NCBI GenBank assembly: GCA_963971425.1
Contig: OZ020525.1
Coordinates: forward strand, 16,746,187-16,810,186
Source of the DNA: Bryoerythrophyllum caledonicum
Lineage: Eukaryota; Streptophyta; Bryopsida; Pottiales; Pottiaceae
DNA length: 64,000 bases
Reading direction: 5' to 3'
Shown here: piece after piece, positions 1,457 through 39,994 of the stretch
Layout: every line of letters starts with the position of its first letter
Numbering within the stretch: the stretch's first letter is position 1
The notes under the pieces: generated by a model
What the model saw: only the letters and a program-made list of their open reading frames with translations
What the model was told of the DNA's origin: nothing
Database searches by the model: none
Made by a program: the position numbers and the translations under genes

Positions 1457-1522
1457 GGGGATTGCTATTTTGCGTGCCTAATTATGCGAGCTGCGAGCTG
1501 CGAGCCTAGGTTTGCGAGCGTA
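1457..1522 (+). repeat. Left TIR of element 1
   Basis: It begins GGGGATT then GCTATTTTGCGTGC at 1464, followed by GCGAGCTGCGAGCTGCGAGC. It matches, in reverse complement, the right end at about 20355-20421. The GCGAGC repeats also occur in the element 2 TIRs. Confidence 0.8.
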
Positions 1523-1692
1523 AAATGAGAAAAATATAAAATTTTGGAGCAAAAGTAAAAGTAACAAAGCATTTAATAAGGAGGCCAATAAGAATGTATA
1601 AAAATGTTTAGAAAAAAGTATAAAGGAGAAAGAAATTCACAGAAAAGGGTAAAAAAGGAAGCAGTTAAAAGTGAAGATAAAAAAATGAAGGG

Positions 1693-1822
1693 CCCTATAG
1701 CCGTGGGAATGCGCGAGCAATTGGCATCAATATGAACGAAACCTTACAATAATAAGGCGAGGGGTAAAAACAATGTAGGGCATCTTAACTACGAAAGTAC
1801 CATAAATACCCTATAGCCGTGG
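1693..1822 (+). promoter_or_regulatory. Subterminal motif pair, element 1 left end
   Basis: CCCTATAGCCGTGG occurs exactly at 1693-1706 and again at 1809-1822. Inverted relatives lie near the right end (20158, 20240) and at both ends of element 2 (27013, 39735). The conserved placement 100-350 bp from each terminus suggests a transposase-binding or promoter site. The binding role is inferred. Confidence 0.55.
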
Positions 1823-2616
1823 GGTCAGAAACGGTGATCTTGATAAACTGCAAAACATTTGGAAATACCATAGTTTTACAATGATATACCGACGTTTATA
1901 CACTTGACAAAATAGACTCGTGAAGTAGGATGAACTCTCAAGTATTTTGGGGCGCTTCAGTATGCAAAGGAGCCCAGTACACGAAAGATGATATTTAGTG
2001 TAACCACAGTAATATTTTTGGTAAAGCAATAACTTTTCTCTTTGGACGAAGATTTTTACCGAGGCACAACTATCAATACTATCATATAGAGAGTGATCAT
2101 TGTTAACATAGTTGGTAAAAAAGATCATGAAGAGTAAAAACGAATAGCACTTAAAATCCAGATGGAGTGGTTAGACATGTAAGAGCTACGTTGACCAACA
2201 CGGTCAGAAGTAGCTTATTAGTCGTCGGTTTAGGGTATGGATAATGGGAACGGATTCACGCCCGCATTCCTGAACCATGTCTGAGAAGACATGGGCTTAG
2301 ATCCAATGAGTAATAGATTTTGCTATCAGAAGGATTCCCACTGAATCATGTTAAGGAAAATATCATGAACTGGAGGCTACTGAATTGCATATGAAGCATT
2401 GAGGTTTACAAACCGAATATGAGTGTTTACTAAATTGTGCAAAAAAAACATGTTGAGTAAAGGAAGTTCTGAAAAGTAAGCAGAGAAATAAAACACACAG
2501 AAGGTGCTGAAATTGATTGTGTGCGATTGTCAGTATACTGTGTGGTAGGATAAAATCAGAACCAGATGATGTACATCAAATTCCAGTCCTAAACAGAGAT
2601 GTAATCAAAAGTGTAG
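1823..2616. other. Subterminal non-coding DNA of element 1
   Basis: This lies between the left subterminal motifs and the stop codon of gene B. No convincing reading frame is present; it probably holds the gene B 3' untranslated region and terminator. No canonical polyadenylation context could be assigned with confidence. Confidence 0.4.
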
Positions 2617-5600
2617 TCAGAAGTAGGAATCCTTGGAAGTGTTTGTGGAAGATGAGAGGCCACAAATCTCCACGTCGGCTTCATCATCAATAAAACGACG
2701 AACACGACAGTCGAAATTTGGAACAGAAGAAGTCGAAGACGGAGATTGAGCCAGAGCCTGCGTAGTAGCAGCTGCCGCATCCCAAGGCATCATGTTGAAG
2801 TCTCGTTCAGGAGATAACAAATGCGCAATCAATCTGAGCATGTGAACCACAGAAAAGTTATGGACAGAGTCAACAGTTAAAGTATTGTATATCAACGAAT
2901 TATCAAACTTACGTACTCAATCTAGTTCTCTTTGCAACTCTCCGAATCGGGACGTCCACTTCAATAAGCGGATGAGCATCAGCATCAGAGGAAACATGAG
3001 GTACGGGATGACGCCCTTGAAGAAAAGGCTTCAATTTTGCGTTGAAGACTGGAATGTCATCTTCAAGGGCTACGATATGCCGGCCCGCTGATTTGCAAGC
3101 TCTTACGGAATTCCCTGTATTGAAAACATAAGATTCAACGACCGAAGAGGAAGACAAAGTTCAAATTACAGACCAATAATGCATCTTCAATGAGAAGGAT
3201 TAGAAATTACCAACGGAAGCGAATGCATCGAGGACAATGGAGCCAGGTTTCGTGAGTGCCTCAATGAACATCTCAATGAATGCTACGTCTTTTTCACGGG
3301 GGCCCCTCCACGGAACCGAGCCGTTCATCGATTGAGATTCTTTTGAAGTAAAGTTGAACACGACATCCGAATCCCCCACTCCCATGCCGAACTCGGTGTG
3401 GTCATCGTTTACGGCAATGAGGAAGTTGTCAGCTCCAAGCTTCTCATGAATGAAGAGTTGTACTTTGAAGCGTCTGCTCTGGAAATGAGATAAGAGGGCA
3501 AATAGTATGAAATCGAAGACCAGAATCCAAGAATGAAACAGAACAGAAAATCGTGTTATACCTGGACAGCAGGAGAGAAGAACGATGACAAGGGAAGGTC
3601 GTTAATTCCCCACCACTCACGAATCGGCTGAAAGCTATAAGCAGCCGCAAATGAGAGGACATCCGCTTTTATACTGGGAACGTCGGGGACAAACAATAGA
3701 ACAGCCCCCTTCGCTTGAAGAAAATGCTCCGCGAACTCAAAAAGCGTCTCCGTGTCCTCAACGGCATACTGATTCCATACTGGGATGAAACCAGAGTTCT
3801 CGGAGACCCCGGGAACCGTCATGCCGTCCTTCAAATCTCCAATAATCAAATCGAAGCCGCTATGCGGGCACTTCGCAGAAAGAGAGAGTGTCCCAGTTTC
3901 ATCCTTAACCTGAAAAACGAAGAGGCTTTAATTTATAAAAAAGGCATGAGCTCGAATATCAAAAACCGAATAGAAGATAGCAAAGGATGAAACAAATAAC
4001 AGAACAGATTGAAAGTAGAGTGAAAAAAAATAATAACAAAACAGAACGAGAGCTTATGAAATACAAGTGCCGATGTTGGCAATGCTTGGAGAATACATGA
4101 AAGGAGTATTTCCTTTCCATAAACGAGGTACCGACATTGGCGTTGAAGAAAACGGAATGCAAACAAATTGCATAATGAGTACATAACATGAAATCAGTAC
4201 AAAATAGTTGAATGGTAAGTGGAACTGAATTCTAAGTTAATGAGAGGAGTACCTGGAGGGCAAAGTTGTTGAGTTCTTGAAGGTTTGGATGGACGTTGGG
4301 CAAATCCTCCATTATATTTCTTATACTGAAGTTGGCAACAAAAACACGAGATCGAATAGAGGAGGATAGCTTGGTCTGGGGCTTCGTCGAAGCCACACGT
4401 TTCTTCCGCTGTTCAGAGATGATAGGGTCTGGATTCACAAGACCAAAGTCTACGTCCGCAGCCGATACCTCCGGGCAAGTTGAAGGCCGTGGTGGACAAA
4501 ATACCGGAGCGAACTCGGGGACGGCAACATCTAAATCCATCTCGGTTGTGGCCGTGAACATTGGTTCCAGCGTTGTCTTCCGGCTGGAATCCACTGCCGC
4601 CGCCTCTGATAACAAGAGAATTCTCGCTTCTGCTTCAGCTGCCGCCTTCAGGGAAAATTCCGCAGCAGCTTTCTTCTTTGCCTCCTCTTCGGCTTTGCGC
4701 TTTGACACTCGGGGCTTCGAGGTTGTGGCGTCGGAGGCGGGCGGGTGCACAAGTACCTCCGTGCCAATCAAGGCTGGCTGTATCCCATTCCTTAGGGAAA
4801 TCTCAAAAGACGGAGGGCATTTCAGTGGGCAATCTAAGTACCAACCGCAAGTTGCAAAATGCTCTTCACCCCACCTCTTCGCAATCTCGTCAGTTATCAT
4901 GCAATTGTCACTTCTTCTGTCCAAGAATCCAGGAAAGAATGCAGGAGTCTTCGACACTGCACTTCGAGGAAGGAGAACAAATTGGTAGTACCTGTATAGA
5001 ACTCTAGAAACCGCCTCGGCCAATCCGATCTGGTCCACCGGCTGTTTATTCTTATGCGTTTTATTGACCTCGAAGTCCTGAACAAATGCAAGATCCCATA
5101 GCTGGATCCGCATCTCCTCGACGTAATCTGGAAGAGTCTTCACAGCGCATTGACCAGCCGGGTGATAGTCGATCGTGACATTGAGATCAGATAGGGAGGC
5201 AGTGAAGAGGTCTTGAACATCACTGGCAATCTGGAAACATCGAACATATAAAATGAAGGAACATTAAACATAGAATTTTACAGCGAGTATGCAGCAAAAT
5301 TGCATACCTGCGCCCACCAGGTGGCCTTGTGCAGCCATTCTGGAAATGAGTGGTCAGCGAACTTTGATCGAGGAAACCGCACAGCTGCCCGAAGCGATGT
5401 AGGCATATTCCAACGCTGCAACCACTTGACCTTCGTTGAGGGATCCATGGTTGATGTCGCAAGGTACCAGAGCTTCTCCTGAGACATTTCAGGGTCATCT
5501 TCGTGGTTCTCATAGTGCTTTCGCACCTCACCTAGAAAATGCGGCGTATGCTTCGGATCTGCAATGGGAAGCTGCTTCATTACTTCGGACCGCCGGTCCT

Positions 5601-8600
5601 TCCTGATCTTGGCAACCGCTTTCCCAATAACCTCATGAAGTTTCCCAGTGTTCCACTCGCAAGATTTCTCTGGAAACTGTTCTTTGAACTTCCTAGTAGC
5701 ATGGGCGACAGCGTCACCTAACTCTTGCTGGAAAAACGAGATCAATAGCATTCAGTTAGGGGTCTAAATAGAAAAATGCTAATCAGAAAAAAAAAAACAT
5801 GGAAAAAACAAAACGGACAGGGACCGGTAACTACAAGATTTTGAGCATCACTAAAGAGGCCTGCTCAAGTAAGATGGTGCCTACATCGTCATCAGGAGAT
5901 GAGGTGAACCTATGGGACCGATTCAATCTATAGACTATTCGATGTCGGCAAGGGTAATGATAATCAATTCAATCGATGGCACTTTTAAATCAAGGCTGAT
6001 ACAATGTACTGAAAGAATGAGATATAAGGAGAATCAATTTTACATGTACCTGATAGAGGACACCAATGAGAGCATCGACTGTCAATGTATACCATGTGTG
6101 TTGATTTGCAGACTTTTGCTTCTTATCCGCGCTTGCGAGGTCCTCTTTCGATACAAAATCTTCAAAAAACTTCAAAGGCTGTCCAGCAATTCCTTGCATG
6201 CGGTAGAGCTTGTGAACGAGGTTAAGTTTTACATGTCCAGTTTGGTTCCTCCTGCATTTTAAAGGAAACACAGTTAGAAAAGTACAAAGCAAGAAAATTT
6301 ATCACGAATTGGTCCAGAAGCGTACCAATTCACTTGGTGAAGCGCGGTTTGGAGGCGCCCCACCTGTCCATCAACTTCAAGAATGATTGACTCAACCGCA
6401 TAATGCCATGCTGGGTCATTGTTGTGATCTCTATTAATTATAGGTAACCACGCTGCGAGCCTGTGATTACCGTCCCACACGAAGAACATTTTTCCCGAGA
6501 ACTGCATCCATACCTCTTCTTTCATTAACTCAATCTCGAACTCATCGTCAGCCTTAACCCACAATGGGCTCCATTTTGCTTTAACTTCATGCGTCACTTC
6601 CTGCGATCTGCCCTCATTATCATGGATGGCAACGTAGAACACTCCGTGGCCGTCCATATAGCCTGTGGTTACAAACTGTGCTCCAAGTGCCATGACATCG
6701 TTTTTTAGGTATGGTCTTACCGCAGCGAGAGGCAACATTCGGCATAGGGGAATACTTAGCTTCGACTTGTTTCTTGGCTTGAATCGCCGTTCGTCAAGGA
6801 TAAGACTGGTGTTCGATGACTCCATGACTACCAACTTATCCATTTCCCTCCCCAGCTCTTCGGCTGATAGTTCAACAGCCGGTTCGCAATCACGCAGTTG
6901 ATCTCCATTATCAGAAAGTGGAACGTCCTCGATGATCGATTCATTGTCCAAAGTATGAGCCTCCCCGCCATCATCACCTAAGGATTCAGAGCATGTTAGC
7001 CAGTTATCATGAATTCAGAATTGATGCAACTGAAGAATTACCTTCTTCAAAGATTTCAGGCTGTGACCGATGAGATAAACCAGCAAGAGCCGGGGCTGTA
7101 GCCTCCGCTTCTCCTTCTTCCAATGCTGAATAAGGACAACAATTCAAAGATTATGAACTACAATCGGGAGCAAAAGAGATTATGGATTGAATAGATCAGT
7201 CCTGATCTGGCGCACTTATAAAAGCCACTCTTGGAAACATGCGTCCAAGCACCTGGAGCCCCGGCATAGAGCCCTGGCACGAGGAGGCACGAGGAGGCTG
7301 CCGACATCGGCAGCCCCCTGCTGGCGCCGCATCCACGCGTAAAATATTATATATTGTTGACTCAGTCCCCGAAAAAAAGCTATGGTCGTTGGAGTGACGG
7401 AAGCCTGTGTAAGCTTGATCGACATCATAAGTCGGTCCTAATCTTCGGTGTCACCGAGCTGCTTCAAATATGCCAGGCTTGGCCATTTAGCGTAGCAGAT
7501 TATGTTGTGCGAGCAGCATGCAGACTATAACTTTAACTAAAAATACGGTACGGCACATACAAATGGACTTAACGAAGTAGATTGCATGCAGCAGTTGTAA
7601 CGTTGTAGCGTCACCTTGCTGTCCCTAAACCTGGACTCCCTGATGATGTTTTTTATTTACACCATAAACCCTAAATCTAGGGTCCGGAACCAGGTAGTTG
7701 GATTAACATGAATTGTGTATACAGTATCTGGTCGTTCGCAACAGAGAATACAACATTCACAACAGTACTACTCTGGCCTAGATAGAAATCTATCATTCTT
7801 ACGTGAGTTACTTGATTCCCTAGGATTTTGTCAAGTTGGAAATGCTTTAATATGGTACCTGAACTTGTAAATGGCATGAGTTGAAGATTTCTTTAGTTCG
7901 AATCCCAGTGACAAGTAACAACTGTACAGTAACGTCCTACGTGAAAATCCGACCAAGATACAGAATAGATTCAGTTTTTCAATCGCCTAATGCACACACC
8001 GGAAAACTGGACCGACCGGCTTGATTCTGTGCGAAAGAAAATTAGTCGAGAAACATGGAAATGAGTTGGGATGCAACAAGAGTTACATACCGTCATTGAC
8101 GTCCTCCGAGCTCCTTCTAATTTCGGCGTCCTCCATCGCCATACAATTTGGATGTCGTTCCTCTGCATTCACATCAACGCACATTTAGCATACAAAACTC
8201 AGTTCGCCGTATACAGTATGAAGAGCCTGGAGGCTGCCGACATCGGCAGCCCCCTGTTGGCATCGCGACCCGCGTAGGTTGCGGCGTCAGCAAGGGGCTG
8301 CCGATGTCGGCAGCCTCCAGGACCTGGCGCTCTTGTGCACGGAGCCCCGGCACCTGGGAGCTGCCGACATCGGCAGCCCCCTACTGGCGCCACAACCAAC
8401 GCTGGTCGCGACGCCAACAGAGAGCTGCCGATGTCGGCATCCTCTAGGTGCCGGGGCTGGATTCACGAGAGGATGGAGTCTTAGCCTCAGCTTACCCTAT
8501 TGTCAAGAAATTCCTTCACTCACTTGCAACTGAGAACTCCAATGTCGCGACTTCAATGATTTGGTGTAATGATGCACTGAAATGCCTACCTTGTTCGAGG

Positions 8601-11600
8601 CCTGCTTATAGAGCCCTGAAATTGAATTGAGGGCTTGGCGCGCACCAAAGCATGCATAATCCGTCCCCCAGAGATCTGCCGGGAATTAGACGGCCTCGAT
8701 TTGGACGGCTTGGCGCTGATTGGTTATCCGACTTAAAATATCATAAATTAAAGACTCATCCCCCGAAAAAAGCTACGCTAATTGGTGTCTCAAAACCCTG
8801 GTCCTAATCTTAGGTATTACAGTGTAGTTTAAAATATGCTGGTGTAGCTGATAATGCATGCTCGAGAATCATGCAGACCACTTCTCCGAATCCAACAGCA
8901 ACTTTAAATACACAACGTCGCAAACGAATGGACTTGGCGATGTAGTTTGAATGCAGCAATTTGTGTTGTTGTAGCGTCACCTTCCTATCCTTAAACCGGG
9001 ACACCCAGATGATGATATTTATATACACCCTGAACCCTAAACCTAGGGTTCGACCACGGGTTCTTGGATCTACATGAATTGTGTCTGTTCGTTCACAACA
9101 GACACTACTACATTCACAACAACCCGTGTACATTCGCAACATTAACTACTCTCGCCAAGCTAGAGATGTATCATTCTTACTTGAGTTACTTGTTTCTCTA
9201 GGGTTTCGTCAAGTTGGAAATGGTTTCAATATGCACACACCGGATAACTGGACCGACCGGCTTTGTTTTGTGCAAGAAAAAAAAAGGAAATAGAAACTGG
9301 ACCGACGATTGTTTAACGTGAGGTGAAAGATAGAATTTTGAAGTAGCTAATGATGGACATTCATACTGAACATAGCTGGATAAATGTATGAACAGTTTAG
9401 TGCTGGATTCCGGGAATTGATTACATTCGGAGGAATGATCCTTGGACTCCTGTTACAGGCTTTGTGAACAAGATTATGAAGACACGACCATGTATCTAGT
9501 GGTGACTCATTTGGTTGAGACGCACCTACGTAGTTCTCATCTGTTTTCGGGTTGATTCCAGAGAGCTCTGCTTGTGGACTAATTATTCATAGGTTAACCA
9601 CTAAAGTTGAAATCGACCAGAATGTGGTCGATCTCAGGCTCTCAGTTACTAAATTTAGATCGAATGAAGTTCAACATCTGGGAGGTTGTAGAGTTTTTCC
9701 ATACCTTTAAAATGACACCATTCATGCTTTAAAATTCCTCATACTTTAGGAGATATTCACGGTCAAAGTTTGAAAACACTGTTAGGTCATGCTGAAATCT
9801 GCCCAAAACTGCGGTATATGCTCATTTATTCTCAAAATCTGCCCAAAATCAATTAGATCGCAGTAATTTCAAAAATTCACCAATAATTGAGATTTTACTT
9901 TTTAATTCAGCATACCTCCATGTGAAAAATTAAGCATTTCTTTAGGTTTTATAGGTCCTATGAGTGTAAAAATTATATGGACATATTCCTTACTCACATA
10001 GGAACAAGAATTTAAAGAGCCTCATGTCAAATTTCCTTTCGAAAATGGTTTTATTGGCCCCCAAAACATTAGTTTTCCATTCTACAACAAGGAAAAAATT
10101 TACATGTACATGTACATGTACAAGTTAGGTACTAGATCTTACGGTTACATACTCGAAAATTTGTCAAAGTTAAAATTTTTTACCTTGCATTGAAAGAGGG
10201 CAGTTTTCAGGGTTTTTGGCAGTTTTGAGGGCTTTCGACTTTAGGGGTTAAGCTCTCTAGGAGGAGAGACGATGCTGATTAGCTCATTCAGCACCGGAAC
10301 AACTTCTTAATTGTCCAACTTCGGCTAAAAACGTTCATTTCGGAGATCGATCAAGGTGATTTATTGTTGTACCCATTTGCACAGTTGTTTACTTATTCGA
10401 CGCAGTTTTTAAATGGCCTCATGTACACACTACAGAACTGGACCGACCGGCTTGGTTCTGTGCCAAAAAAAATATATCGAGAAAGATGAAAATGAGTTGG
10501 AATGTAACAAGAGTTACATACCGCCATTGAGGTCCTTCGAGCATCTTCTAATTTCGGCGTCCTCCATCGCCATACTATTAGGATCTCGTCCCTCTGCATT
10601 CACATCAACGGACGTTTAGCATGCAAAACTCTGTTTGCCGCTTACTGTATGAAGTGCCTGGAGGCTGCCGACATCGGCAGCCCCCTGATGGCATCGCGAC
10701 CGGCGTAGGTTGCGGCGCCAGCAAGGGGCTGCAGATGTCGGCAGCCTCCAGGTGTTGGCGCTCTTGCGCACTGAGATGCGGCACCTGGGAGCTGCCGACA
10801 TCGGCAGCCCCCTGTTGGCGCCGCAACCAGCGCTGGTCGCGACGCCATCAGGGGGCTGCCGATGTCGGCAGCTCCCAGGTACTTGCGCTCGATTCGCATC
10901 GAGCGCCATCACCTGGGAGCAGCCGACATCGGCAGCCCCCTGTTGGCATCGCGACCCGCGTTGGTTGCGGCGCCAACAGGGGGCTGCCAATGTTGGCTGC
11001 CTCCAGGTGGTGGCGCTCTCGCGCATCGAGCGTCAGCACCTGGGAGCTGCCGACATCGGCAGCCCCCTGTTGGCGCCGCAACCAACGCGGATCGCGATGC
11101 CAACAAAAGGCTGCCGATGTCGGCAGCTCCCAGGAGCTTGCGCTTGATGCCCGAGAGGGTGGAGCCTTAGCCTCAGCTATCCCTACTTCTAAGGAATGTG
11201 TTCACTCAGTTGCCAGCGACAGCTCCATCGTCGAGACCCAATCGAGAACGATAAAATTGAGTTTGTGATGCTAGAAGAGTTACATACCGTCATTGATGTT
11301 TGCCATGCTCCTCCAAATTTCAGCGTCCTCCATCGTCATACTAGGATCTCGTTCCTCTGCGTTCACTTCGATACAAGTTAGTATGAACAACTCTGTGCGC
11401 CGCATACAGTNNNNNNNNNNNNNNNNNNNNNNNNNNNNNNNNNNNNNNNNNNNNNNNNNNNNNNNNNNNNNNNNNNNNNNNNNNNNNNNNNNNNNNNNNN
11501 NNNNNNNNNNNNNNNNNNNNNNNNNNNNNNNNNNNNNNNNNNNNNNNNNNNNNNNNNNNNNNNNNNNNNNNNNNNNNNNNNNNNNNNNNNNNNNNNNNNN

Positions 11601-14825: not shown

Positions 14826-15475
14826 AGCCCTTGAGTTGCAGTTTCCCTTCTATGTCAAGTTTACCACTCCATTCTTGTCGAGAGCCCCTACTCATTCTAT
14901 TCCTATATAGCGACCGCCACCAATAAGTCTAACGCGTTCATTCATCTGACAATTATTCCTAATTACCAAGTCGAAATCCCAGGTAGAACCCACGTTCATT
15001 GATTCACATATTGAGTTATTCATCGGTCTCTGTGCTGACAGTCCTGGTACTCTCATGAATTACATTGAGTTCGCCGCCATTCTCTGGACTTGAGGATATT
15101 TTGGCTGCAACTTGAGATGGTTATTGACGGCCTCGTTAATTCAATACTTGATTACACTCTATAGCTCATTAGTGCTCCTCCCTGACATTTTTAGAAACAC
15201 TGTACTCTTCATGGATATTATTTTTGAACACCTGATACTATAGCATTATTGATAATCTTCTTTTTAGTTCAAGGGCGGCGTCTCTTAACATCTCTACTAC
15301 GGAATTCGTTGAACTACGTCTCCCTTGAACTTATGGCATTCTCAGAACCTACATTTAATCTTTGTTCCGGCCGCTCGGAAGATCTTGCCATTCACAGGCT
15401 TCACATCATTTTGCATCTTTAGCCTCTCCAGCCTCATCCTTCTTTCTAATCTGTTCACCACACATCTTGTTTTAC
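14826..15475. promoter_or_regulatory. Divergent intergenic region of element 1
   Basis: The 650 bp between the ATG of gene B (minus) and the ATG of gene A (plus) must hold both promoters and 5' leaders. Element 2 has the same arrangement (31335-32213). No single TATA box could be assigned with confidence. Confidence 0.6.
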
Positions 15476-20421: not shown

Positions 20422-20431
20422 TCCGCAAAGG
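20422..20431. repeat. Target-site duplication, right of element 1
   Basis: TCCGCAAAGG, identical to 1447-1456. Confidence 0.75.
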
Positions 20432-22939: not shown

Positions 22940-23366
22940 GATTTCTTAGTCTTCCCATGTCAAAAATAATGGCTTCATCCACCAAATTCCTGTTAATCAT
23001 GTTTAGTAAGACCATACGTCAGTACATTATGTTTAATATTTGAAAGATATACAAAACAATATGTATACATATTATGGAAATAATCATCTGACATCTCTGG
23101 ATTTGTTTTCCTTCTTTTCCCTCTTCTTTTTTTTGAGACAATTTTTGTCCAATAATTCCACGTATTTGCTTTTGCAACGACGAAGAACTCTCAAATTTTT
23201 CATTTACACCTTCTTTATCTCCAACTTCTCTATCGTCAACATTAATTTTCTCAATTTTTTCTTCTCCTTCTTTTCCTTCTTGTTGTTGTTGTTCTTCTTC
23301 ATCTTTTCCTTCTATTTCAATTTTTTTACTTTCTTTTTACATTTCTTCATTTGAATCCATTATTTT

Positions 23367-25940: not shown

Positions 25941-25944
25941 ACAA

Positions 25945-26835: not shown

Positions 26836-26886
26836 CAGCGACGCTATCTTGTGAGCGGTGAGCGGCGAGCGGCGAGCGGTGAGCAG
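26836..26886 (+). repeat. Left TIR of element 2
   Basis: GCTATCTTGTGAGCGG from 26843, then GTGAGC/GCGAGC repeats to about 26886. It is the reverse complement of 39944-39987 with few differences. The first 11 bases differ from the element 1 TIR at two positions. Confidence 0.8.
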
Positions 26887-27012
26887 AAAATAGTCTGAAA
26901 ATGGAAAATAAAAGTTGTTTATTTATAGCAAAACTTTTTTTTTTGGAAAATAATGATAAGTCTCTCAAACTTTGCGTGGAAAATTCGAAGAATTTTCTAA
27001 ACTTAGAATGTA

Positions 27013-27026
27013 CCCTATAGCCGTGG
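27013..27026 (+). promoter_or_regulatory. Subterminal motif, element 2 left end
   Basis: CCCTATAGCCGTGG, identical to both left-end copies in element 1 and 177 bp from the terminus. Its relatives at the right end, in inverted orientation, are CACGGCCATAGG (39736) and the weaker CTACGGTCTTAGG (39879). Confidence 0.55.
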
Positions 27027-27614
27027 AATCTCTAACCATGGACATTTTTACCAAATTCCTTTCGTCGCTCATGTCCAGGACTATCAACTCGCGGTTTTAT
27101 TTCCATTTATTAAAACCTTAAAATTACAGAGTCCACAATCAAATAAAAAATTTGAATGAAATTTTATAAAACTTACAATGAATGTGAAGTCCAACAGTAG
27201 GGGATGTGGAGTCATATAATTTCATCGTGATAGCTATATTACACAGTGTTTGGAACAAATAATATTTTAATGTTCTAACATTAGATTCTAAACTATCGTC
27301 CAATGGTTAAAGATACCGCATCTCTCCAATTGGAGTTAGGCGTGGTTCAAATTTGATGATATTATATGCTGCCAATACATGACATAACTTCTGCATGTTG
27401 CTAATATAGCTCCTCTCAAGTCGGTTAAAATAATGTATCAGAAAGAATGATACATTGTAACATAAATTAGTATATTGAAGAGAAGTATGAGTGAGAAATT
27501 CACTCATGCATTGACTATTAGCCATCCTCGTGACAAGCAAGACCAATTTCACATGTTCAAATACGAGCTACAGCAAAATACAAATACTATTCAGAAGATA
27601 CGTCACTACGATTT

Positions 27615-30600
27615 TCATGCTTGCTCGGCAATATTTGCAAGCTCTAGAATGCGCATGACCTCGTTAAAGCTGTAGCTTGGGGCATACATGAATAAGTCCT
27701 CCTTGTAGTCCATCTTACATAAATAGCGTAAGATGTAATACACATGCTTGCAATACTTCCATTGCCCTTTCTTCCCCAACGCCTTCACTGACATCTTCAG
27801 GAAATCTGGACATGTACACGCCGGATAGTCTGTGAAGGTTATGCAATACGACTTCTCCTTCTCCGTTAGAAGAGTGATGACGCATCCAAATCCCGGATAC
27901 GGCATGGCGGTGACATTCGTAACGTAGCAATTCTTCATCAACGCTACGCTTGACCACTTGTTTCGGTGCTCCACGGAAGGCACATCTGAACTTCGGCGAA
28001 TCTGGTAGCCGTTGCGGAAAGTATGGTACGAGTCCGGATTCTCTGGAAGAGGGAAGTTCGATCGCGGTAGAGGCATGCTCATAGTTACCTGAAACTGTCT
28101 ACGAGGCGACAAAGTACCACGTTGCTCTAACTGAAAACCTGCTTCTTCTAACGATAAAACTTCTTGCATCGTTAGATTCGTGCCAAGCTTTACTGGCCAT
28201 GTCATTGGGACTGATGGCCAGTCTACTACAAACGGTTTCTTCGAACCCATCACGCATCGGCTAATATCATCAGCACAAAACCAGAACTCGACAACAGTAT
28301 TTCGGGGCGGCCTGAATTCCTTCTTCTTGCCAATATATGTCGGGGCAGGTGTTCCCTGACTCCCACGCCCAACTCTAGCGTCACACCTTTCACCGGTGTG
28401 TGCCTGCAATGCTTGGCACTTTCGGTGGGAGGTCTTCGGAAGTCGACCAATGTGCCACTTTGACGGATCACACTCCGATTCCAATACTGCAGTTGTGTGA
28501 CGGACCCCGGAACCTTGTTCATTTAGGGCCTCTTCGATTCGCGCCCGCGTCACCCTTCTGCCATCACGTGGAATCGAATAGTTCACCGTATCGGATCGGT
28601 GGGAGTCGTGGCTGGACCCGGGTGGCATGTCAAGTTTGCGTTTTGTAGACCCAAAATGCTCCGCTCCTTCGAGCCCGCCCGTCTTTGTCAAGAGATCCTC
28701 CGCCCCCGGGAAACTCCGCACAGCTTCTACAATGAGTCTTGGATCACCAGAACGTTGGGCAGATCTTAATCGAAGCGTACCTTTGTCTGGACCTTTCCCG
28801 GAGGTGCCTCCATTGATCCATGCCCGATACGAAGTGATTTGCATGAAAGCCCGAATTAGGTCATCCACGGTAGCCGCATATAAACATGTCATGGTATTCC
28901 CGGACTGTTGAAGCCAGCGGTTGTGGACTGTCTCCGCAAGATTACATGATGGCATGTCAGCTCGCTGGTCGAGTGTGAGGTCCTGATATCATACAGCAAT
29001 GGTCAGTACATCATTCACATATAACTTTTCAACAATTTGAATATTTATAAACAACATTGCGAGAACTTACTAGTTGCATTGCTCCACCCCATTGTCTATA
29101 TCGGAAATGCCAAAAAGCCATCCAATCTTCCAGCGCACGACGCCCGCTCTCGGTAGTGGCTCCAGATGAAATCCACCATCCACAAATGACGTTGTATTGT
29201 GCTTCAGCCTCTTCTTGTGATCTCGCGTTCTTCCAAATCCTACAAAGTGCAATGTGTTGATCTTGGAATACTGGTAGAATGCTCTTCATGGTGGCTCGTT
29301 GAAGGCACTTGGTCCAATGGAATAAACAAGTCCGTTCTTTGTTTTCGATCGGGACGTCCTTGTCGCCATTGCCATACACTCGCCGAACAGCGTGCCAATT
29401 CGCTCCGGCACTATCAGCCATGAACCCTTTGAAATTCGTGTTCTCCACTCCGTGATTCAACATCGTATCATTCAGGTTCTCCCAAAACAACTGTTGTGCT
29501 TGAGCATCCTCCGATTGCATATCACACATAGCTATCGTCATAACTTTACAATACTTACTGTCGTATACATGGCATGCCATGGTAGTCCAGTCTTTAACCC
29601 GCTTTACGTGATCAAACATCAACCAACAATCTTTGAGATCTCCACCAGGTTGCATCCGCCGAACAAGATCAACACCGCTACCAGGACGATCCACAGACAT
29701 TTTAAATACAAACACCTTACCTTTAGATTGGCCTGGGAACTTGTTCTTGCGGATGAAGACAAACTTGGATGACTCCTTTAGCTCCATGATGTTGTCCATG
29801 ACACCCTTCCCACCACTGTAGAAGCGCTTGCATGTCGACACCAAATTCCTTATGTTAGGGGATGATAGAGTCTGGAACTGATACAAGACATCATCCATAG
29901 ATGCTCCTTCAAGGTTTGATGATCCCGATCCGGGACGGATCAAGTAATCGGAAAGGTAATTCTTACTGGCAGCCATAATGATTGCAGAATTAGTGGCGTT
30001 GGGTGTGCGCTCGACTTCCTTCGCAACGCACTCATGTATCACGTCCATTGCGGCTTGGTCAACTCCATTTGAGATGGGATGCTGGTGAATACCTAGATAA
30101 ATGGCAAGTCGGGTGCGCTCCGAATCGGTACACGTCACATAATAAATACGTGCATCACATAGAGCTAGACAAATAGGCGGGGTTTGACAAACCTTACAAG
30201 CCAAGGTTGATTTACGGTGCGGAGCGCCATTGAGAGGCCAGGGGGAAATGGCGAGACCACTCCATTCTGTTTGATTAGTGCGACCTTCATTCCTGCACTT
30301 ATAATCACAATGAAGATTAGGACATTGAAGATGGCCAGTACATGATGACTTTCGGTATGTCAAGCCAAAATCGTTCATGATATTCGTAGTCATTGTCTTG
30401 CACCATGTGTGACCATCGTGTTGCTTGCTCATACCATCCAGTCCTCCTCCGAACTGAGTTGGTATGCCTTCTGGAAGTGGAGGCAACTCAAACATCATGT
30501 CCCCGTTGTAAGACGAAGGCAAATACTTCACACGTGAAACCTCTATGCTGTCAAAATCCATGTGTGTCAACTCAGAACGGGATCATTTTCTAGAACAGGT

Positions 30601-31334
30601 CCTGCGAACATATGGAATGATACTGCGGATACTTTTAGATTTTGGATGGACAGGTGGTTTTCTAAAGGAAAGAGACGGAGACATGTGCGACCTACTTGGG
30701 GTATGGATAGACGCATCGGGAACAGTAGAGTTTTGCGACTTAAAAGTGTGCGATGATTCCCCCAAATTCACATCAGAGAGGTCCTCGTCCGTGTCACTTA
30801 GAAGTTGCACGCTTGGGTTAGACCGTGTGCCCAAACCGGGCACGAGTATCGTATCACCGGAATCGGAAGGAGGGATCATCACTGCACAGGACGCATTAGC
30901 AGACATTTGAGTATCCCTAACACCATATACTTTAAAAGAACCACGACACAGATTCCACAGAAAGCCTAAATTGTCTCGATCTTTCACTTGAACACCATAT
31001 TCATTATTTTGGGAGATTGTGAGCCTCCCAATTTAATACGTATGTTGCTCTTGAGCTCTAAAATGTACCCACTATGCACATTCAGCTCGAGTAGAGCTGA
31101 ATGTGCACTAGATCAAAATCATGGAAATCTCCCAATATAATGAATATGGTGTTCTTGGTATATAGAATGTTCTAGTCGTCCTGAGCTATCAAACACCTCT
31201 TGTTCAAGATGAACGGTTCCAAGTCTAAACCCAAAGCGACTACTGAGGACTGCCTCCGGGACATTAACAGTGCCATTTTCACCAACGGACATGACAAGCG
31301 GAACACCACCATTCTGAGATGTGAGTGACGCCAT
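27615..31334 (-). pseudogene. Gene A (element 2): MULE-type transposase, disrupted
   Basis: Exons 31334-29071 and 28982-27615 use the same intron position and phase as in element 1. Conserved blocks: TEW plus CKVCQTPPIC, LGIHQHPI, CHVYDSKYCKVMTIAMCD, FMADSAGANWHAV, CLFHW, PSCNLAETVHNRW, and a SWIM finger (CTC ... YCKH). Two lesions separate the start (MASLTSQNGG) from the core: a MITE of about 167 bp at 30989-31155 after codon block HSIYQ, and an in-frame TGA at 30583-30585 where element 1 has a sense codon (CSRK*SRSEL versus RRGSKSVL). The rest is open. Read-through, or restart downstream of the stop, cannot be excluded. Confidence 0.8.
30989..31155. mobile_element. MITE inserted in element 2 gene A
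   Basis: About 167 bp, with inverted ends GAACACCATATTCATTAT and a GGGAGATT continuation on both sides, and a central hairpin (TGCACATTCAGCTC with its complement, about 31076-31108). It interrupts the transposase reading frame after HSIYQ. The target duplication is unclear (possibly TT), so the superfamily is not assigned. Confidence 0.75.
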
Positions 31335-32213
31335 AGTTAAGAGCTCTCCACAACATAGGATATGAAATGCATGCGGATTATGATTGCGGTTGTATATTGA
31401 ACGAAATCAACTGCTTGATTAAACATCTGAGTGAAGACGTCGAAGTACGGAAACGCATCGTGCTCATAAATGGCTGAGTTTATTTAATGCCTTCTGTCAA
31501 ATGCCCATGCACGCTCCTTGACGGCGCCTCTATAAAAATGGAAACATTTTAAAATTTATGATAAAATTAAAAAGGTTGATCCAACTAAGGTGGAGTGTAC
31601 CATACAGTTGGTATTCGACGTGTACAGTGGTTATCCACTAAACTATCAGTAAATATCCAAAGATAAGAGGCTTGTGACGGCGGTGGGAGATTATAGTGAT
31701 GGAACAACCTAGAACTAATTTCAAGTTTAGTTAAGGCTGACAACATTAGTTTAAATAGATGTTTGGAAAGGGCCGTGCCAAATGTGGGTGCTCAGAGTAG
31801 GTCAATAGTCCAGGGTTTGCAACGATGAGGTGCTTTCAAAACTCATGTGCGAAATAGAATATTGATATATGTGCCACCTCAAGCTGTAGGATCACCCAAT
31901 CTAATTATGCTACGTGTGTTGTCGTTATTTAAGAATCCAAACCTATATACAAAAAATACAGTGTTTAGAATGGTGGGAGGAAAGAATATTATGGGCATAT
32001 CATAAATAGATAGCAGTTCCGATTCAAATTAAAGGCTGACAATAGCCAATAATATAGCCTAAACAATCGCCACCATGTACTGAAGATAATAGGAAAGGGC
32101 ATTCTTAGTCAACATTGCTTTGTAGTAGAAGCGTCAATATGTTTGTGGTCTTCTCTGTGAGAGAGTGATGTTTAGGCATAGAGAAGGAGTCGGTTTAGTT
32201 TTGAATATTGAGG
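31335..32213. promoter_or_regulatory. Divergent intergenic region of element 2
   Basis: About 880 bp separate the starts of genes A and B, mirroring element 1. It is expected to hold both promoters; no specific boxes were assigned. Confidence 0.55.
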
Positions 32214-35200
32214 ATGACTAAGAATGCTAGACAGAGTAGAAGATCTACCAAGTTTTCAAATCCTAAGCAAGTGCGCGCACAGAAGAAACGTCGAGAGCAG
32301 AGGGCACTATTAGCTTCCCAAAACACGGAAGTAGATGAACCAGAATGGGCAGAGCGATTTAGGGATTTGACTAGTATCCACGAAGGAGGTAATCCAATCC
32401 AGCCAAGGGTTCATGTATGTCTTGAATGGTCTGCCCAAATGATTTTGAATATCACGATTTAGTTCAATTCAATGGTGTTATTGCATGACTTTGCTATCTC
32501 TTTATGTTGTGTAGGTGACTACACCATTTGAGCATTCTCATGGGGATAGTGAGGAGGAAGAGTCTTTACAAGCCAATATGGTGAGTGAATGTCAGACATC
32601 CAGTGCCTCAGATTGCTCGTTGCAAAGGGGTAAGGTTGCAGTCGAAAAGGTTAAGGAATTCGAGTGTGAAAGTATGGAGACCACAGAAGTTTCCGGGAGC
32701 TAGGGACATCCACCAAACTCCTCAAGGATCATGAATGGTTCACCCTCTCGGACATCAGATACTCAAATAGAGAGCCATTATGAAAGCGCGGACGAGCGTC
32801 CAGAAGCACTGATGAATCCAGGATGGGCCCCATTGACTCAGGTTTGATTCATGGCATCCATTCGCAAGTTGTTTGAGGTTATGTATCGGCCTATAAATTA
32901 CAATGCACGACGCTTAATTACCAATCCATAGTTCGTCAGGATTTATCTAGAGAGTAAAATCTGTGGACATGAATATAGATGTAGTGTATGTCTGAAACAT
33001 CTAACTTTTGCATTGAATCAAAGTTCTAATCATTCAGCTAATACTTATTGAACTTGAAACCATCTTAACAAACGCTACATATAATGGCATTCTTACATAT
33101 ATTAGATTTAATTACATTGTTTAAGACTACTTCCGATATATGCATTTTATGCATTTTATTGATGCATTCATCTATGACATGTCAATCGGGTTCACCACTG
33201 GTTTTGGTAGGAAAATTCCTAAATGTCTTGACGTCTCCCCGGGGGGATTGTAGGGGCGGAGAAAAAATTACTAAATATAGTAAATTTTAGTGAAATTTCT
33301 GAATGGAAATTACTGCATTTTTTGTCGAATAGGACGGATGGGCATGTGGATTTCTATGTGTATCCGACAATTTGGGAATGTCATGATGACTTTAGAATTC
33401 GAGGAAATATTTACTTGACGCTTTCGGCACATGTTAAAGCTAAAAAATTGCAAAAGCATGACTTGTGCTTTCATATCTGGAGAAACTCCAATTCGGTATA
33501 TGTGTGTGAGCTTCGTGTGTTTCGCGGCTGTTTCATTTTGTTGCACATTTTTGACTTTGTGGTTTCCGGTGGTTCTTGTTCAGGGCGCAGTGCGTGCGGA
33601 TAGTCGGAGAGTTACGGAGGGAGCTGCGTTGGACGAGGAAGGAGCTGCACACGGCCGAAGCTTGCAATCCGTTCAGGTTCGAAACTCTGATCTCCATCCT
33701 CTGTTTGCGCGTCGGTTTAGATTGTTGTTTAAACAGGAGCTTCCGGTCGTGGGTAACGTTTACATGGTTGAGAGCGCACAAGGATGTGCGGCAATCACTT
33801 ACATCTCGCTGAAAACATTATGCTGCACTAGGATTAGACAATGTGGATATATCGCATCATTAGGGTAAGTTATTTTGTACACGACGGCGCATTAGAATTA
33901 GTCGATACGCACCCACTTAATACTCGTGTGCATGCTGCTTTTAAATTTCAGAATTTCTGTGAGTGAAAATATGACCCTCGGATCCGAGGGTAGGTTCAAT
34001 CCTCCAAATTTCTGTTTTCCTCCTTGCCCAAGTCCTGTTTTCATGTTAGTTTTTTTTCTTCTCGTGTGCATACTTCAAACTGAATTTCAGAATTTCTGTG
34101 AGCAAAAATTAGACCCTCGGATCCGAGGGTAGGATCAGTCCTCCGAATTTCTGATTTTCTCCTTGCCCAAGTCTTGTTTTCATGTTAGTTTTTATTCTTC
34201 TCGTGTGCATACTTCAAACTGAATTTCAGAATTTCTGTGAGCGAAAATTAGACCCTAGGATCCGAGGGTAGGTTCAGTCCTCCGAATTTCTGATTTTCTC
34301 CTTGCCCAATTCCTATTTTCTTAATAAATTTTTTTTCTTCTCATGTGCATACTTCAAACTGAATTCCAGAATTTCTGTGAGTGAAAATTAGACCCTCGGA
34401 TCCGAGGGTAGGTTCACTCCTCCGAATTTCTGATTTTCTCCTTGCCCAATTCCTATTTTCTTAATAAATTTTTTTTCTTCTCGTGTGCATACTTCAAACT
34501 GAATTTCAGAATTTTTGTGACTGTGAATGCGACCCTCGGATCCGAGGGTAGGTTCAATGATCTGATTTTTTTCCTTTTCCTTGCTAATTTCTGTTTCATT
34601 TTCGGTTTCTTTTTTTCATCTCTTGTTGCTTGGTCATGCTCAAATTGTTTGTGTCTTGATTTAAACTGGTGTAAGAGTGAGGAGCCTAAGCTTGCCATGC
34701 TCGTGTGCATATTGCTTGTGAATTTTAGAATTTTTGTGACTGTGAATGCGACCCTCGGATCCGAGGGTAGCTTCAGTGATCTGATTTTTCTTTTCTTTTC
34801 CTTCCTAATTTGTGCTTCATTTTTGGTTTCTTATTTTCATCTCTTGTTGCTTGGTCATGCTCAATGTGTTTGTGTCTTGATTCAAGCCGGAGTTAGAGTG
34901 AGGAACCTAAGCTTGCCATGCTCATGTGCATACTGCTTTTGAATTTCATAATTTGTAGGAGTGTAAATGGGACCCTCAGATCCGAGGGTAGGTTTAGTCA
35001 TATGTTTTTTTTTCTTTCTTTGCTAATTTTTGTTTCATTCTTGGTTTTTAATTTCATCTCATGTTGCAAGGTCATGCTTTATATGTTTGTGCCTTGATTT
35101 GAGCTGGTCTTAGAGTGAGGAACCTAAGCTCATGATGCTTGTGTGCTTGTTGCTTGAAAATTTCAGAATATTTTAGAGTTAAAATGTGACCCTGTAAATT

Positions 35201-38200
35201 TGTGCGTTACCTTGTTTTAGATGGCAGATGTTGAGCACGGCTCTATGTCCATGGGTGATGGCATGGACATTGAAATTCAAGTGGGGGAACATCCGGTGAT
35301 TGATTTGGAGGCCGAGTCAAGAATGGAATCGACCGAGCAAGCGTTGCAAAAGTCCATCAGGGGGACAGCTTCCGAGGTTCTTCGGACCTCGATTTATCCT
35401 TCAAGTGAGGAGCTCCTCATTCCCCTTTGCCGCATGATCCCCATGACAGAGGTGCAACTTCCTTTGAGGACCGACGTGGAGAAGTTGAAGGCGGAGTTTG
35501 TGAAGGGATATCGACCTGGCTCTGCCTGCTTCTACGTGGCGGTCAAGAATTTCTCATTAGTGGAACAGGTGGTGCTTCCCTCGGAGCGTGCAAAGTGGTC
35601 TGCACTATGGTTGGAGGAGGATAAGAAATTCGAGGCGATGTTGCAGAGTCGGCCAGAGTTGCAGGCGTTCTCCGACAAGTATTTCTTTGTCTGGGATGGA
35701 AACCACCGCCATATTGCATGGATGGAGTTGATCTCCCAGATGCACTCTACCGACTTCATCTATCATTCGCCAGTGACGGCAGTTGTTTTGGAGCCATCGT
35801 TGGCAAACCGTCATATTCTACTGAATGCTATGACAGATGTGAACAAGTAAGTAGTATCTACTAAACCACTATATCATGTTTTAATCTCAATTGCGCATTG
35901 TCATTGATGTCATGTTCATATTGAATATTTTGGTGGGATTATGCTAATTAGTGGTTATATATTTTCTAGGCAAAAAGAGGTAGATCATGTAACCCAACAC
36001 ATATCACACAAGTTGAAGAGGATCCAACATTTTGGATTGTTGGACTTTGACCAGCTCAAGGGCTTGATTAGCGATGACGATTACGAGGCAAGTGTTCACG
36101 AGTGGGGGAGGAGGGCAATGAAGAAGTGGAGTCACATGACCTATGATGCATTCTTGAAACTCATGTTTAAGTAACATATTCGATACAAGCCTATAATTCG
36201 ATTGCCTTTCAATCATATTTCAGAATATGTTTTTCTCTTATTTCTATTAATTGTTGTCATTGGTTTTTTCAGCGTGAGATTATTGCCACCCAGGAGGAGT
36301 GTATCAGAAATTACAAGGATGGCCTCGTAACTGGCGTTGGAGTTGATCGTGTTGGTAGTCCAGCTGAGTTGGTAAAACTTTGCACTGAGGCCGTGCAGAA
36401 GAAGAAAACGGCGTGTCAGACTACCTTCACCAGGATGTTGGCGATCGCAAATCCAACAAACGGCGAAGAGTTTTTCACAGAGGTGTGTTAATTCCAAGTC
36501 TGATTCTGTATTTGATTGTATTTTCCTTCTTCATTTACTTTCATTTATTGTCTATTAGTATTTGACAAATTTATTGTCTATAAGTGCTTCAGGTTATGCG
36601 TCATTTTGATATTTACCAAACTAAGCCAGAGATGACACTTGAGAAGCTCCAACTCTTTTGCACCGCTAAAGTGGCTGGAAGGTTCAAGGGGCGCTGGTGT
36701 AAATGGTGGAATATGAGCAAGCACAGTAGGGCGGAGTACAACTTTCCAAAATCGCCGGCTTCAGACACGAGCCTTCGGGGATGGATTGATACAGCTACAT
36801 TTTGGGCTGGAGTGAGTTCTTCTAATGCCTATTTTGTATTGAATTTCAATCATTTAGCTCAATATATCTTGCACACTTATATTTTTATTGTATGTGGTAG
36901 TTGGAGGAGGAAACTGGAACGAAATTTTCTGAGATCCTCGAAGAAGACAAGGTTGTTCTGAAGAAAGAGGGGCTTCCCAATCCCATTGAAGATATTGGTT
37001 CTTGGATGGAGGCTTGGAGCATTATGTTGTGGACTAAGGCTTTCAAGGACCATGTTGGGAGGAAGGGCGTGTTCTCTAAGTCAGAGGAGTTTCTGAAGCA
37101 GGAGGGTTGTGAGAAGACCATGAAGCGGGCGGTGCTTCGATACTTCTGGAGGGAACTCGTTGCAAAAGGAGCGTTGCAGCCGGGTCAATTGCCAATCCGC
37201 TTCAAGGTATGGACGGACCCTACTTCTGCAGATTGCATTTTCACCGAGCAGCAGAGGCGACGCTTCTCTCGTCACCACTTGGTACAGTGTCCTTGGTTCT
37301 TGGAGTTGACGGATGCTGATCCTACCCCGGGAGAGGAAATTCAGCTTCGTAGGGAGTGCGATTCTATAGCTGCCACTTCAGGAGATGGCGACATGCTTCC
37401 TTCGTCCGTCACTATAGTGACTCCCACGGTCGACGCAACACTCTCAAAGCAAGAGAAGGCAAAGGTTGCGGAGAGGGCGGCCAGGGCGGCGGTCAAGGCG
37501 GCAGAGAAGGAGGCGATGAGGGTGGAGAGAGAGACCGCGAAGGCACTGAAGAAAGAGACCAAAGAGAGAAACAAGGAGTTGGTGGCGTTGGTGGTGAGGG
37601 ATGGGCCTGAGAAGCTAATTGCTGAGCTTGGGGGGGTTGTAGCGTTTACTCGCCCTGCTGCGATGGTGACAACGACCGGCATTTCCCCTTCAGCTAGCAG
37701 TCGGCCTTCCACTTTTGTCGCGAAGCCTTCGCAGACTATCTACTCCATTCCGGTGGTGGAGGATGTCGAGTCTGTAGTTGGAATGGAGGTATTCTCTCAG
37801 AGTGCTCTTAGCATTATGACCCTCTTTGATAGTATCGCTGAAGAGGATGACCTCCCTCCAATTTGGTGTGAGATTCGCCAATTCATGAAGACGCATTCTG
37901 GATCGCGGATGCGGCGCCATCATGGGAGTGATTGCTCTGATGGTTTGGTGGACATGGTTCTATTCGACGTCCCAGAGAATTTGCCAGTCCCTGGAATTGA
38001 GGGCGGCTTTGACGTGCCGGTTTGGAACAAACTTCCAACCCAACTGTCTAGCGGTGGTAGGAACGAATCTCCATGGATTCATAGGTGTTTTGAGATGGCT
38101 GAGGCATTGCTTCGCGATGGGGCGCCACTCATCGTGTTCTACCCAGACTCAAAGTTCATATCGAATGAACTTCATGCTTGGGCAGAGTGGGCAGACTTTC

Positions 38201-39231
38201 GTGAGGAGACAAAGTGGTTTTCCATTAACGGTTTGTCTCTCTCGCGCGAAGGATACCCCGGGCGCACTCACAAATGCTTCATGGTGAAGTGCTATGTAAG
38301 GAAGCTTGATCCAACAATCCCTTTTTCTTCTAATGACAGGATGGAATTGTTGTTGGAGGGGATCCAATTGTCTTCAGATGGTCATTTGACCAATCTGATC
38401 ACACAAGAGACGCTGACGATGAGAGGTTCCAGTAGCCAGCCATGGCGAGGAGCGCGGGAGAAGTCCTCCAATCTCATGGAGGCTCTTATTGACCTTTGCA
38501 CTGAGGAGAATGACATCATCCTCGACCTGACAGCATCAACCGGTTTGTTTTCTTACTACTTTCAATTCAATGAAATTTGTCTTTTCTTTCAATGCAATTA
38601 TCAATTTCAAACTTTGTGTCGTACAGGAGCATCTATCAAGGCTTGCATGGCCCTCAAGCGCCACATCCTGGCGTTAGAGGAGGACTCGGATTTGGTAGAA
38701 GAGGTCCTCCGGCCTTTGATTCCTTGCACTTCAGAGGTGGAGTCCGAAGTAGCGCTGCCAGTGCAAGAAAACTCTCGCAAGCGTCCATTGGAGCTTGATG
38801 ACGACGAGCCGGAGGTGAAGACCGCTCGGAAGAGAACTTGTAAGTAAGTTCAGTGCCTTTGATAAAAGATTATGTTTACTAGTATACAATGTTTAATTAT
38901 ATTTTGAGTTATTAATGAAATGACACATTTTTTATGCAGTCGGACAACATCGTTGATGGCCGTTCCATCAAACACTCGGTCGGGGGTGCTATTACGCTTA
39001 TCGATGGAGGTGAAGAGTCCGCCGCGCACATTTCACATGAATCCTTGGGATAGAGGTATTGCAGATGCGATGGCTGCACTTCGATCTCCTTTACGTGTCT
39101 CAGAAGTAGCCCGTTGTAGGTCTGCCGCAAAGCAGTTCATAGATGGAGAGGCGGCCGCTAGTGGATCGGATAGTAGTTTGCCTCGTATCCAGGAGGATAG
39201 CTCGGATGACTGTTCCGTAGAGGAATCTTGA
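32214..39231 (+). CDS. Gene B (element 2): ParB-like plus beta-class DNA-methyltransferase-like protein
   Basis: Predicted exons: 32214-32414, 32515-32580, 32704-32841, 35221-35846, 35970-36170, 36273-36482, 36593-36811, 36901-38542, 38627-38843 and 38940-39231. The N-terminus is strongly basic (NPKQVRAQKKRREQRALL). The 35221 exon is ParB-like: IPLCRMIPMTEV, CFYVAV, FFVWDGNHRHIAW. A charged Ala/Lys/Glu helix (KAKVAERAARAAVKAAEKE) follows. The methyltransferase-like part has VDMVLFDVPEN at the motif IV position, then PWRGAREK and IILDLTASTG|ASIKACMALKRHILALEED. The intron inside motif I is at the same place as in element 1, as is the C-terminal block SPPRTFHMNPWD. The donor at 36170 is out of phase with the best acceptor at 36272, suggesting a one-base lesion or an acceptor near 36310. 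Function is inferred; methylation activity is doubtful because DPPY is not intact. Confidence 0.7.
32842..33939. other. Remaining part of the large gene B intron
   Basis: No convincing exon. A 145-codon plus-strand frame at 33431-33868 has no recognisable domain and overlaps other open frames, so it is not called as a gene. Confidence 0.35.
33940..35190. repeat. CCCTCGGATCCGAGGG palindrome array (gene B intron, element 2)
   Basis: Seven copies start at 33975, 34114, 34253, 34393, 34533, 34752 and 34973. The first five are spaced 139-140 bp and the last gaps are about 220 bp; a decayed eighth lies near 35186. Two copies carry one mismatch. The palindromes are better conserved than the surrounding tandem units. 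The array fills the intron before the ParB-like exon, as the different palindrome array does in element 1. Confidence 0.9.
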
Positions 39232-39994
39232 TCTCTCTACTTTGGTAGTTGTTTTCTTTTTCATCATGGATTTGGTTTCTTGACAGTTTCATTACAATTG
39301 TCAATCTACTGTGTCTTATTTGGGGTTTCCACAACCTTCTACAATCCAAAACTCCAACGTAATTACCAAGTCGTTACTCTTGTTTTGTTTATTATTCGAT
39401 CCATACAATGTCCACAACATCTGTCTACATGTATTTAACTACATGCATTTTCTTCATATTTTATTTTTCCAATTCAAAGTAGTTTGGACTCAATCGGTAT
39501 CACCTAGGTATCACATGGATATCACCTTTGAATTATAAGGGTATAAGCTTCGCATCAGATGGGTATCATCTATCTTAAACCCTATTAACTTTTCAAAAAA
39601 TTCTAGACAGTCCATCGTAGAATAATTATGAACTAAACGGACTAACCGCTCTCATATTTCCATAGGTGTATATTTTATCTCTCTCTCTATGTATTTAGTT
39701 TTGTAAAAACATGTTCATGTACCCCAAACTAAACGCACGGCCATAGGCATTTTCCCTCATTTTTTAGAAGAATTGTTGCAATTTAAACTTCAACAAGTCA
39801 GATTTCCATCTCTCCAAAACTCTAATTATTGTATGTTTTACATGTATTTTTTTCATGTCCAAAAAATGTATATATAACCTACGGTCTTAGGTGTCCCTTT
39901 CAAATTTTGAATTTTTTTGTTGCAAATGAAACACTAAAAATGAGTGCTCGCCGCTCGCTGCTCGCCGCTCACCGCTCACAAGATAGCATTCCTG
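39232..39994. other. Right subterminal region and TIR of element 2
   Basis: It holds the gene B 3' region, the inverted subterminal motifs at 39736 and 39879, and the right TIR (39944-39994; GCTCACCGCTCACAAGATAGC type). GTATCAC-type words repeat at 39496-39570. No gene. Confidence 0.7.

Follow-up and report, generated by a model that had tools for sequence, protein, structure and literature searches.

The DNA analysed here (the window) is a 64,000-nucleotide stretch of contig OZ020525.1 from Bryoerythrophyllum caledonicum. Two elements were located in it, elements 1 and 2, each bounded by terminal inverted repeats (TIRs) and each containing two genes, a transposase-like gene A and a second gene, gene B. 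Both belong to a single large family of TIR DNA transposons that has been active recently and makes 10-bp target site duplications (TSDs). Their limits and terminal features were as follows.

1457..20421, no strand: element 1, 18,965 bp including 200 N; ends GGGGATTGCTATTTTGCG ... CGCAAAATAGCTTGGTCC; limits set using the TSDs of sister copies
1447..1456: left TSD of element 1, TCCGCAAAGG
20422..20431: right TSD of element 1, TCCGCAAAGG
1694..1822, plus strand: two copies of the subterminal motif CCTATAGCCGTGG, left end of element 1
20157..20252, minus strand: two copies of the inverted subterminal motif (1 and 2 mismatches), right end of element 1
26836..39994, no strand: element 2, 13,159 bp; ends CAGCGACGCTATCTTGTG ... 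CACAAGATAGCATTCCTG; without TSD in the window copy
27014..27026, plus strand: subterminal CCTATAGCCGTGG, gene A-side end of element 2
39735..39747, minus strand: inverted subterminal motif (2 mismatches), gene B-side end of element 2

An earlier note on this DNA had described related TIRs, a shared subterminal motif and an outward-facing gene A/gene B pair in both elements, set in opposite orientation and with approximately 0.76 to 1.2 kb between stop codons and termini. All of this was recovered (the distances by arithmetic), and the outer coordinates 1457 and 39994 were exact. A perfect 10-bp TSD flanks element 1 on both sides. Before the inner TIR (GCTATTTTGCG / GCTATCTTGTG) each end has a further 7 bp, which are incompletely complementary between the ends. 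With up to 2 mismatches allowed, the subterminal motif occurred six times in the 64 kb, always near element ends and inverted between them; five single-base shuffles of the same 64 kb gave a mean of 1.0 occurrence.

The proposed size range of 13 to 19 kb agrees with the measured lengths, but element 1 is enlarged by an internal duplication beside the 200-N gap and three sister copies measure approximately 16.1 to 16.3 kb. By inspection, a direct duplication of approximately 2 kb occupies 8697-10650 and 11611-13560, with the N gap (11411-11610) between. Gene A and gene B exon 12 are 10.2 kb apart in the window, N gap included, and 7.3 to 7.6 kb apart in three sister copies. As sister copies have the shorter A-B gap, the duplication could be either an error of assembly or a true expansion of the array.

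The flanks of element 2 do not match (CTCTACGCAT / TTCTAGTGTG), hence the missing TSD. A long interspersed nuclear element (LINE)-like endonuclease open reading frame (ORF; 39887-41095, minus strand; PF03372, E 4.9e-8) overlaps its right end, and the sequence directly to its left (26100-26800) resembles, on inspection, part of a PIF/Harbinger-type transposase. These two flanking sequences suggest a later rearrangement or assembly join, which is the likely cause of the missing TSD.

Exon models for both genes are predictions made by sequence inspection. The gene A models were as follows.

15476..17587, plus strand: gene A1 exon 1, transposase-like; Asp541, Asp590, CxxH; splice sites by inspection
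18033..19481, plus strand: gene A1 exon 2; NLAE Glu721, CxC..CxH
29071..30561, minus strand: gene A2 exon 1; starts at the first ATG after a stop, the N-terminal part upstream being interrupted
27615..28982, minus strand: gene A2 exon 2

In this model gene A1 has two exons encoding 1186 amino acids (aa). A stop codon lies upstream of the ATG at 30561, so the window copy of gene A2 is interrupted in its 5' part; three copies at 97% identity keep a 736-aa open frame where it is broken. Inspection also showed an apparent short inverted-repeat insert in that 5' part, at 30980-31175. The A1 and A2 proteins are 48% identical, and two comparisons of gene B exons between the elements gave 26% and 35%, in line with the clear divergence described earlier.

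The gene B models were as follows.

2617..14825, minus strand: gene B1, 16-exon model by eye, with an open frame of 1334 aa and GT-AG borders at every intron
8091..14070, minus strand: B1 mini-exon in five in-frame copies of 69/72 bp (14070-14002, 13498-13427, 11356-11288, 10593-10522 and 8162-8091)
6326..6977, minus strand: B1 exon 9, with conserved FFVWDGNHRxxAW
2917..3909, minus strand: B1 exons 13-15, methyltransferase-fold region (3909-3562, 3478-3211 and 3114-2917)
32214..39228, plus strand: gene B2, partial model; a stop codon interrupts the frame of exon 32515-32841, and phase is not kept across the junction at 36170
35221..35846, plus strand: B2 exon carrying FFVWDGNHRHIAW
36901..38844, plus strand: B2 long ORF of 648 aa, which reads through one intron; the methyltransferase-fold region starts at approximately 37900

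The duplication next to the N gap accounts for two of the five mini-exon copies. The first exon of B1 begins at 14825, approximately 650 bp from the gene A1 start at 15476, and with this spacing the two divergent genes have a common upstream region. The stop and out-of-phase junction of B2 reflect either a degenerate gene or a model error.

The host genome (437,360,962 bp, 894 contigs) was searched in six frames. The best 63 of 3257 candidates were scored for A1 exon 1 and the best 84 of 3001 for A2 exon 1; gene B exon searches scored the best 123 of 1730, 68 of 3830 and 150 of 1855. A divergent, opposite-strand gene B lay within 25 kb of 123 of the 147 gene A copies listed (55/63 and 68/84). 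When gene A positions were shifted by 0.5 to 2 Mb as a control, 1 to 3 of 147 had one. The earlier note had asked for co-occurrence to be checked genome-wide; neither a lack of it nor TIRs that exclude one of the genes was found. An apparent absence of gene B from many A2-like copies (18/84 paired at first) was largely rejected: searching with an exon from one such locus raised the count to 68/84, leaving 16 unpaired, and at one locus first scored as lacking gene B the gene was present on reading (BLASTP).

Nine copies were read at both ends. Seven had a 10-bp TSD, one a 9-bp TSD and one, the window element 2, none; the duplications of 9 to 10 bp anticipated for paired TIRs were therefore found in eight of nine copies, element 1 included. 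TSDs read by eye were GCTGCCGAAC (C2), TGCACGGAGC (C4) and CCTTGGGCAC (C7) for copies of element 1, and TATGCAGTGG (C1), GTGAAAATAG (C7), CCCGAGTTAT (C6) and TATACATTA (C14; 9 bp) for relatives of element 2. Sister copies were 99.8 to 99.9% identical in DNA over 4 to 5 kb, which indicates very recent transposition.

The class of gene A was assessed by domain, profile and structure-database searches. PF10551, the Pfam domain of Mutator-like elements (MULEs), matched none of 26 gene A proteins (E up to 10). Across the host genome it gave 138 matches among those listed, none of them in the window (best 150 of 384 candidates scored). Profile alignment with hhalign against canonical MULEs of the host genome gave P values of 0.039 and 0.041, and with L002 alone the value was 0.86; one profile was not clean, its P0001 row having retained alignment gaps. 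At those weak values Asp590 and the CxxH region of gene A were aligned with the MULEs. As a pattern, with no profile match, the residue order D, D, CxxH, E was present in the four gene A sequences viewed and the CxC..CxH tail in A1 and A2; these would correspond to the MULE DDE triad, in which CxxH stands between the second D and the E, and to a putative SWIM zinc finger. A sequence search of the PDB with gene A returned nothing meaningful.

Gene A might instead represent another DDE superfamily, distinct from MULEs, whose duplications are 10 bp long by coincidence. The Pfam result (none of 26 proteins, in a genome with 138 listed matches) and the three hhalign values speak for this, whereas the TIRs, the D..D..CxxH..NLAE order, the CxC..CxH tail and a TSD length within the 8 to 11 bp of MULEs (PMC6446971, available part of the article) speak against it, and we consider it rather unlikely. 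We call gene A MULE-like: the earlier label "MULE-type" is consistent with the TIRs, the order of motifs and the length of the TSD, though Pfam matches fail and profile matches are weak. With no Pfam MULE match among 26 proteins and more than 3000 candidate places per gene A query in a loose first scan, of which the best 63 and 84 were scored, domain-based annotation may miss such elements.

In public genome and metagenome proteins, gene A had 45 relatives among 8000 scored candidates, the best reaching 68% identity across 58% of the query. The gene B long-exon profile had seven (7999 candidates scored), and the whole spliced B1 protein had no match among 8000 scored candidates. Precomputed Pfam domains were absent from the gene A and gene B relatives among these proteins, and gene A relatives sought in viral contigs yielded none that was confirmed. 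Among GTDB genomes a two-exon gene A was seen on one contig (CADCWO010000080.1, L001) of a cyanobacterial metagenome-assembled genome, where it is probably eukaryotic contamination.

The C-terminal region of gene B has the beta-class DNA N6A/N4C methyltransferase arrangement, with motif IV before motif I. Fold matches of a low-confidence structure model, obtained from Foldseek with a structure aligner that re-ranks only its best 1000 chains, included CcrM and PvuII N4 methylase. A PDB sequence search with gene B returned two adenine methyltransferase chains (E 0.052) among 4 rows, and Pfam searches with pieces of gene B gave a weak N6_N4_Mtase match and DUF7104 at E 0.15. In sequence and motif order the region resembles phage DNA methylases (Sinorhizobium phage HMSP1-Susan HMSP1_69 and Pseudomonas phage Orisa03). 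The catalytic aromatic of motif IV is replaced by an acid in all ten sequences aligned, with no residue preset at this position (DLKD, DIPD and DVPE/DIPE, compared with DLPY), and the DLKD of B1 also lacks the proline. The motif I region is kept, as is the acidic ALE.D after it wherever that exon was covered. Gene B is predicted on this basis to carry a beta-class DNA-methyltransferase fold with an altered catalytic motif. It may derive from a phage/bacterial-type DNA methyltransferase, keeping the S-adenosylmethionine (SAM) fold but having probably lost methyl transfer.

The WDGNHRxxAW motif of a gene B exon resembles ParB/Srx. Assignment to ParB was not retained: PF02195 gave 0 matches genome-wide at E up to 1, and it matched in 11 of 14 genomes used as controls. 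The structure model of this exon was unusable (pLDDT 34) and a PDB sequence search with it returned nothing meaningful; the resemblance is kept as a lead only.

Noncoding tandem arrays of family-specific short palindromes are present in introns between the two genes.

7300..17827, no strand: GCCGAYRTCGGC palindromes, 17 in all; gene B1 model introns contain 15 and the gene A1 intron 2
33974..34768, no strand: ACCCTCGGATCCGAGGGT, five perfect palindromic copies within a tandem array of 139/221 bp; they lie in the intron that precedes the B2 exon at 35221 (partial model)

In the 64-kb window GCCGAYRTCGGC was found nowhere beyond those 17 sites. The element 2 palindrome contains GATC. Host genome counts, in which the same transposons are represented many times over, were 335 for CTGCCGAYRTCGGCAG and 616 for CCCTCGGATCCGAGGG; the reversed control of each gave 0, and the random expectation genome-wide is approximately 2 and 0.1, respectively (arithmetic). 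Among the first 50 CTGCCGAYRTCGGCAG sites listed, 33 lay between a divergent A-B pair, 12 more lay 5' of a gene B and 5 were near neither; the listed A-B gaps make up 0.1% of the contig holding these sites. For CCCTCGGATCCGAGGG, 50 listed sites comprised 10 between a pair, 11 5' of a gene B and 29 tied to no listed gene.

The arrays might have no function, having arisen as by-products when transposon introns underwent tandem duplication, and gene B might be a passenger. They are indeed tandem repeats, and the number of transposon copies accounts for part of the genome counts. Yet two CTGCCGAYRTCGGCAG clusters sit in copies only 73% (gene A) and 48% (gene B) identical to element 1, so that the same palindrome was kept between diverged pairs, and in a family member whose gene B exon is only 66% identical (L082) four CCTCGGATCCGAGG-type palindromes recur upstream of the corresponding exon. 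We regard the by-product explanation as quite improbable.

Two further palindrome observations were made. Left of element 1, positions 1-640 contain a 30-bp perfect palindrome, AGACCCACCTTCGGATCCGAAGGTGGGTCT, with variants; its core, TCGGATCCGA, is common with the element 2 palindrome, and these may represent an array that belongs to a different member of the family. At host locus C1:1075985-1076953 palindromes are mostly 63 to 64 bp apart, approximately six helical turns, a spacing that would place adjacent sites on one face of the double helix.

Three functions for gene B were considered with these data. It could be an active DNA methyltransferase that marks the element's own DNA at its ends or at the palindromes; such marks might, for instance, set the timing of transposition, limit it, or obstruct the silencing enzymes of the host. 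The fold, the retained motif I region and ALE.D (where covered), the matches to CcrM and PvuII N4 methylase and the GATC of the element 2 palindrome are consistent with this; the acid in place of the motif IV aromatic throughout the ten sequences, and the B1 motif without proline, make it unlikely. As its motif IV lacks the final aromatic of the DPPY type, gene B was not filed as an active methyltransferase. An accessory role in transposition is equally doubtful: gene B would help gene A to cut or insert, with the palindromes as its docking sites. The second Mutator gene is a parallel, and genes A and B frequently co-occur in divergent orientation, but the palindromes lie far from the ends, in introns, and the subterminal CCTATAGCCGTGG already resembles a transposase site.

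The reading we favour, with a probability of roughly 0.4, is a gene B-bearing family with a MULE-like transposase in which gene B marks the element as self and keeps it expressible by binding the palindromes. By analogy with VANC in VANDAL elements, gene B would be a sequence-specific DNA-binding partner whose fold comes from a methyltransferase. It would recognise the element's own intronic palindrome arrays, and this binding would mark the element as self, counteract silencing and maintain expression. More tentatively, the history may be that of a phage-type DNA methyltransferase captured by a plant DNA transposon, which lost its catalytic aromatic and was turned into a self-recognition and anti-silencing factor binding intronic palindromes, a convergent VANC.

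Several points weigh against this favoured reading. Of the gene A copies, 24/147 were without a listed gene B and 13/147 had a non-divergent gene B match within 25 kb. A near-identical copy (C6) loses homology at approximately window position 14274, before most of gene B. The mean predicted local distance difference test score (pLDDT) of the gene B methyltransferase model was 50.8, and only 21 of 50 listed CCCTCGGATCCGAGGG sites were linked to a listed gene A or B. The conserved SAM-fold could be catalytic on another substrate, and the palindrome binder could instead be gene A or a host factor.

Elsewhere in the window, composition is strongly strand-biased after the LINE-like ORF, up to approximately 46 kb; an (AAC)30 microsatellite lies at 48368-48458, and a receptor-like kinase, apparently a host gene, at 53289-55493 (minus strand; S-locus-type domain just below the cut-off), a kind of gene that suggests a land plant.

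If true, the favoured reading would give plant transposons a second, independent way to evade host silencing, one based on a methyltransferase fold. The proposal can be tested, since there are very recent copies with open reading frames. In the open-access titles and abstract beginnings listed, no such element was described; an earlier listing in Repbase is possible.

Among known systems, MULEs (MuDR, Jittery, Hop) are alike in TIRs and TSDs of 8 to 11 bp and, as a residue pattern, in the D..D..CxxH..E order and CxC..CxH tail, and some have a second gene. The present elements differ in their 13 to 19 kb, in a gene A unmatched by the Pfam MULE domain and in a gene B with a predicted DNA-methyltransferase fold. 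The phage DNA methylases are approximately 245 aa and keep DLPY, whereas gene B1 encodes 1334 aa with an altered motif IV. The closest precedent found is the methyltransferase genes carried by virus-borne Mariner elements (PMC3627910), likewise DNA transposons with a methyltransferase gene; these belong to another transposase superfamily and other methyltransferase classes, and palindrome arrays are unmentioned in the available part of that article. VANDAL elements of Arabidopsis have an anti-silencing system (PMC5735166) in which VANC binds tandem short-motif repeats and removes silencing marks (PMC10398659). As far as the available parts of these two articles go, VANDAL elements share with the present family noncoding tandem repeats of family-specific short motifs, array length that varies between copies, and a further transposon-encoded protein. 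Here the motifs are palindromes inside introns and gene B has a predicted methyltransferase fold; the likeness is one of architecture.
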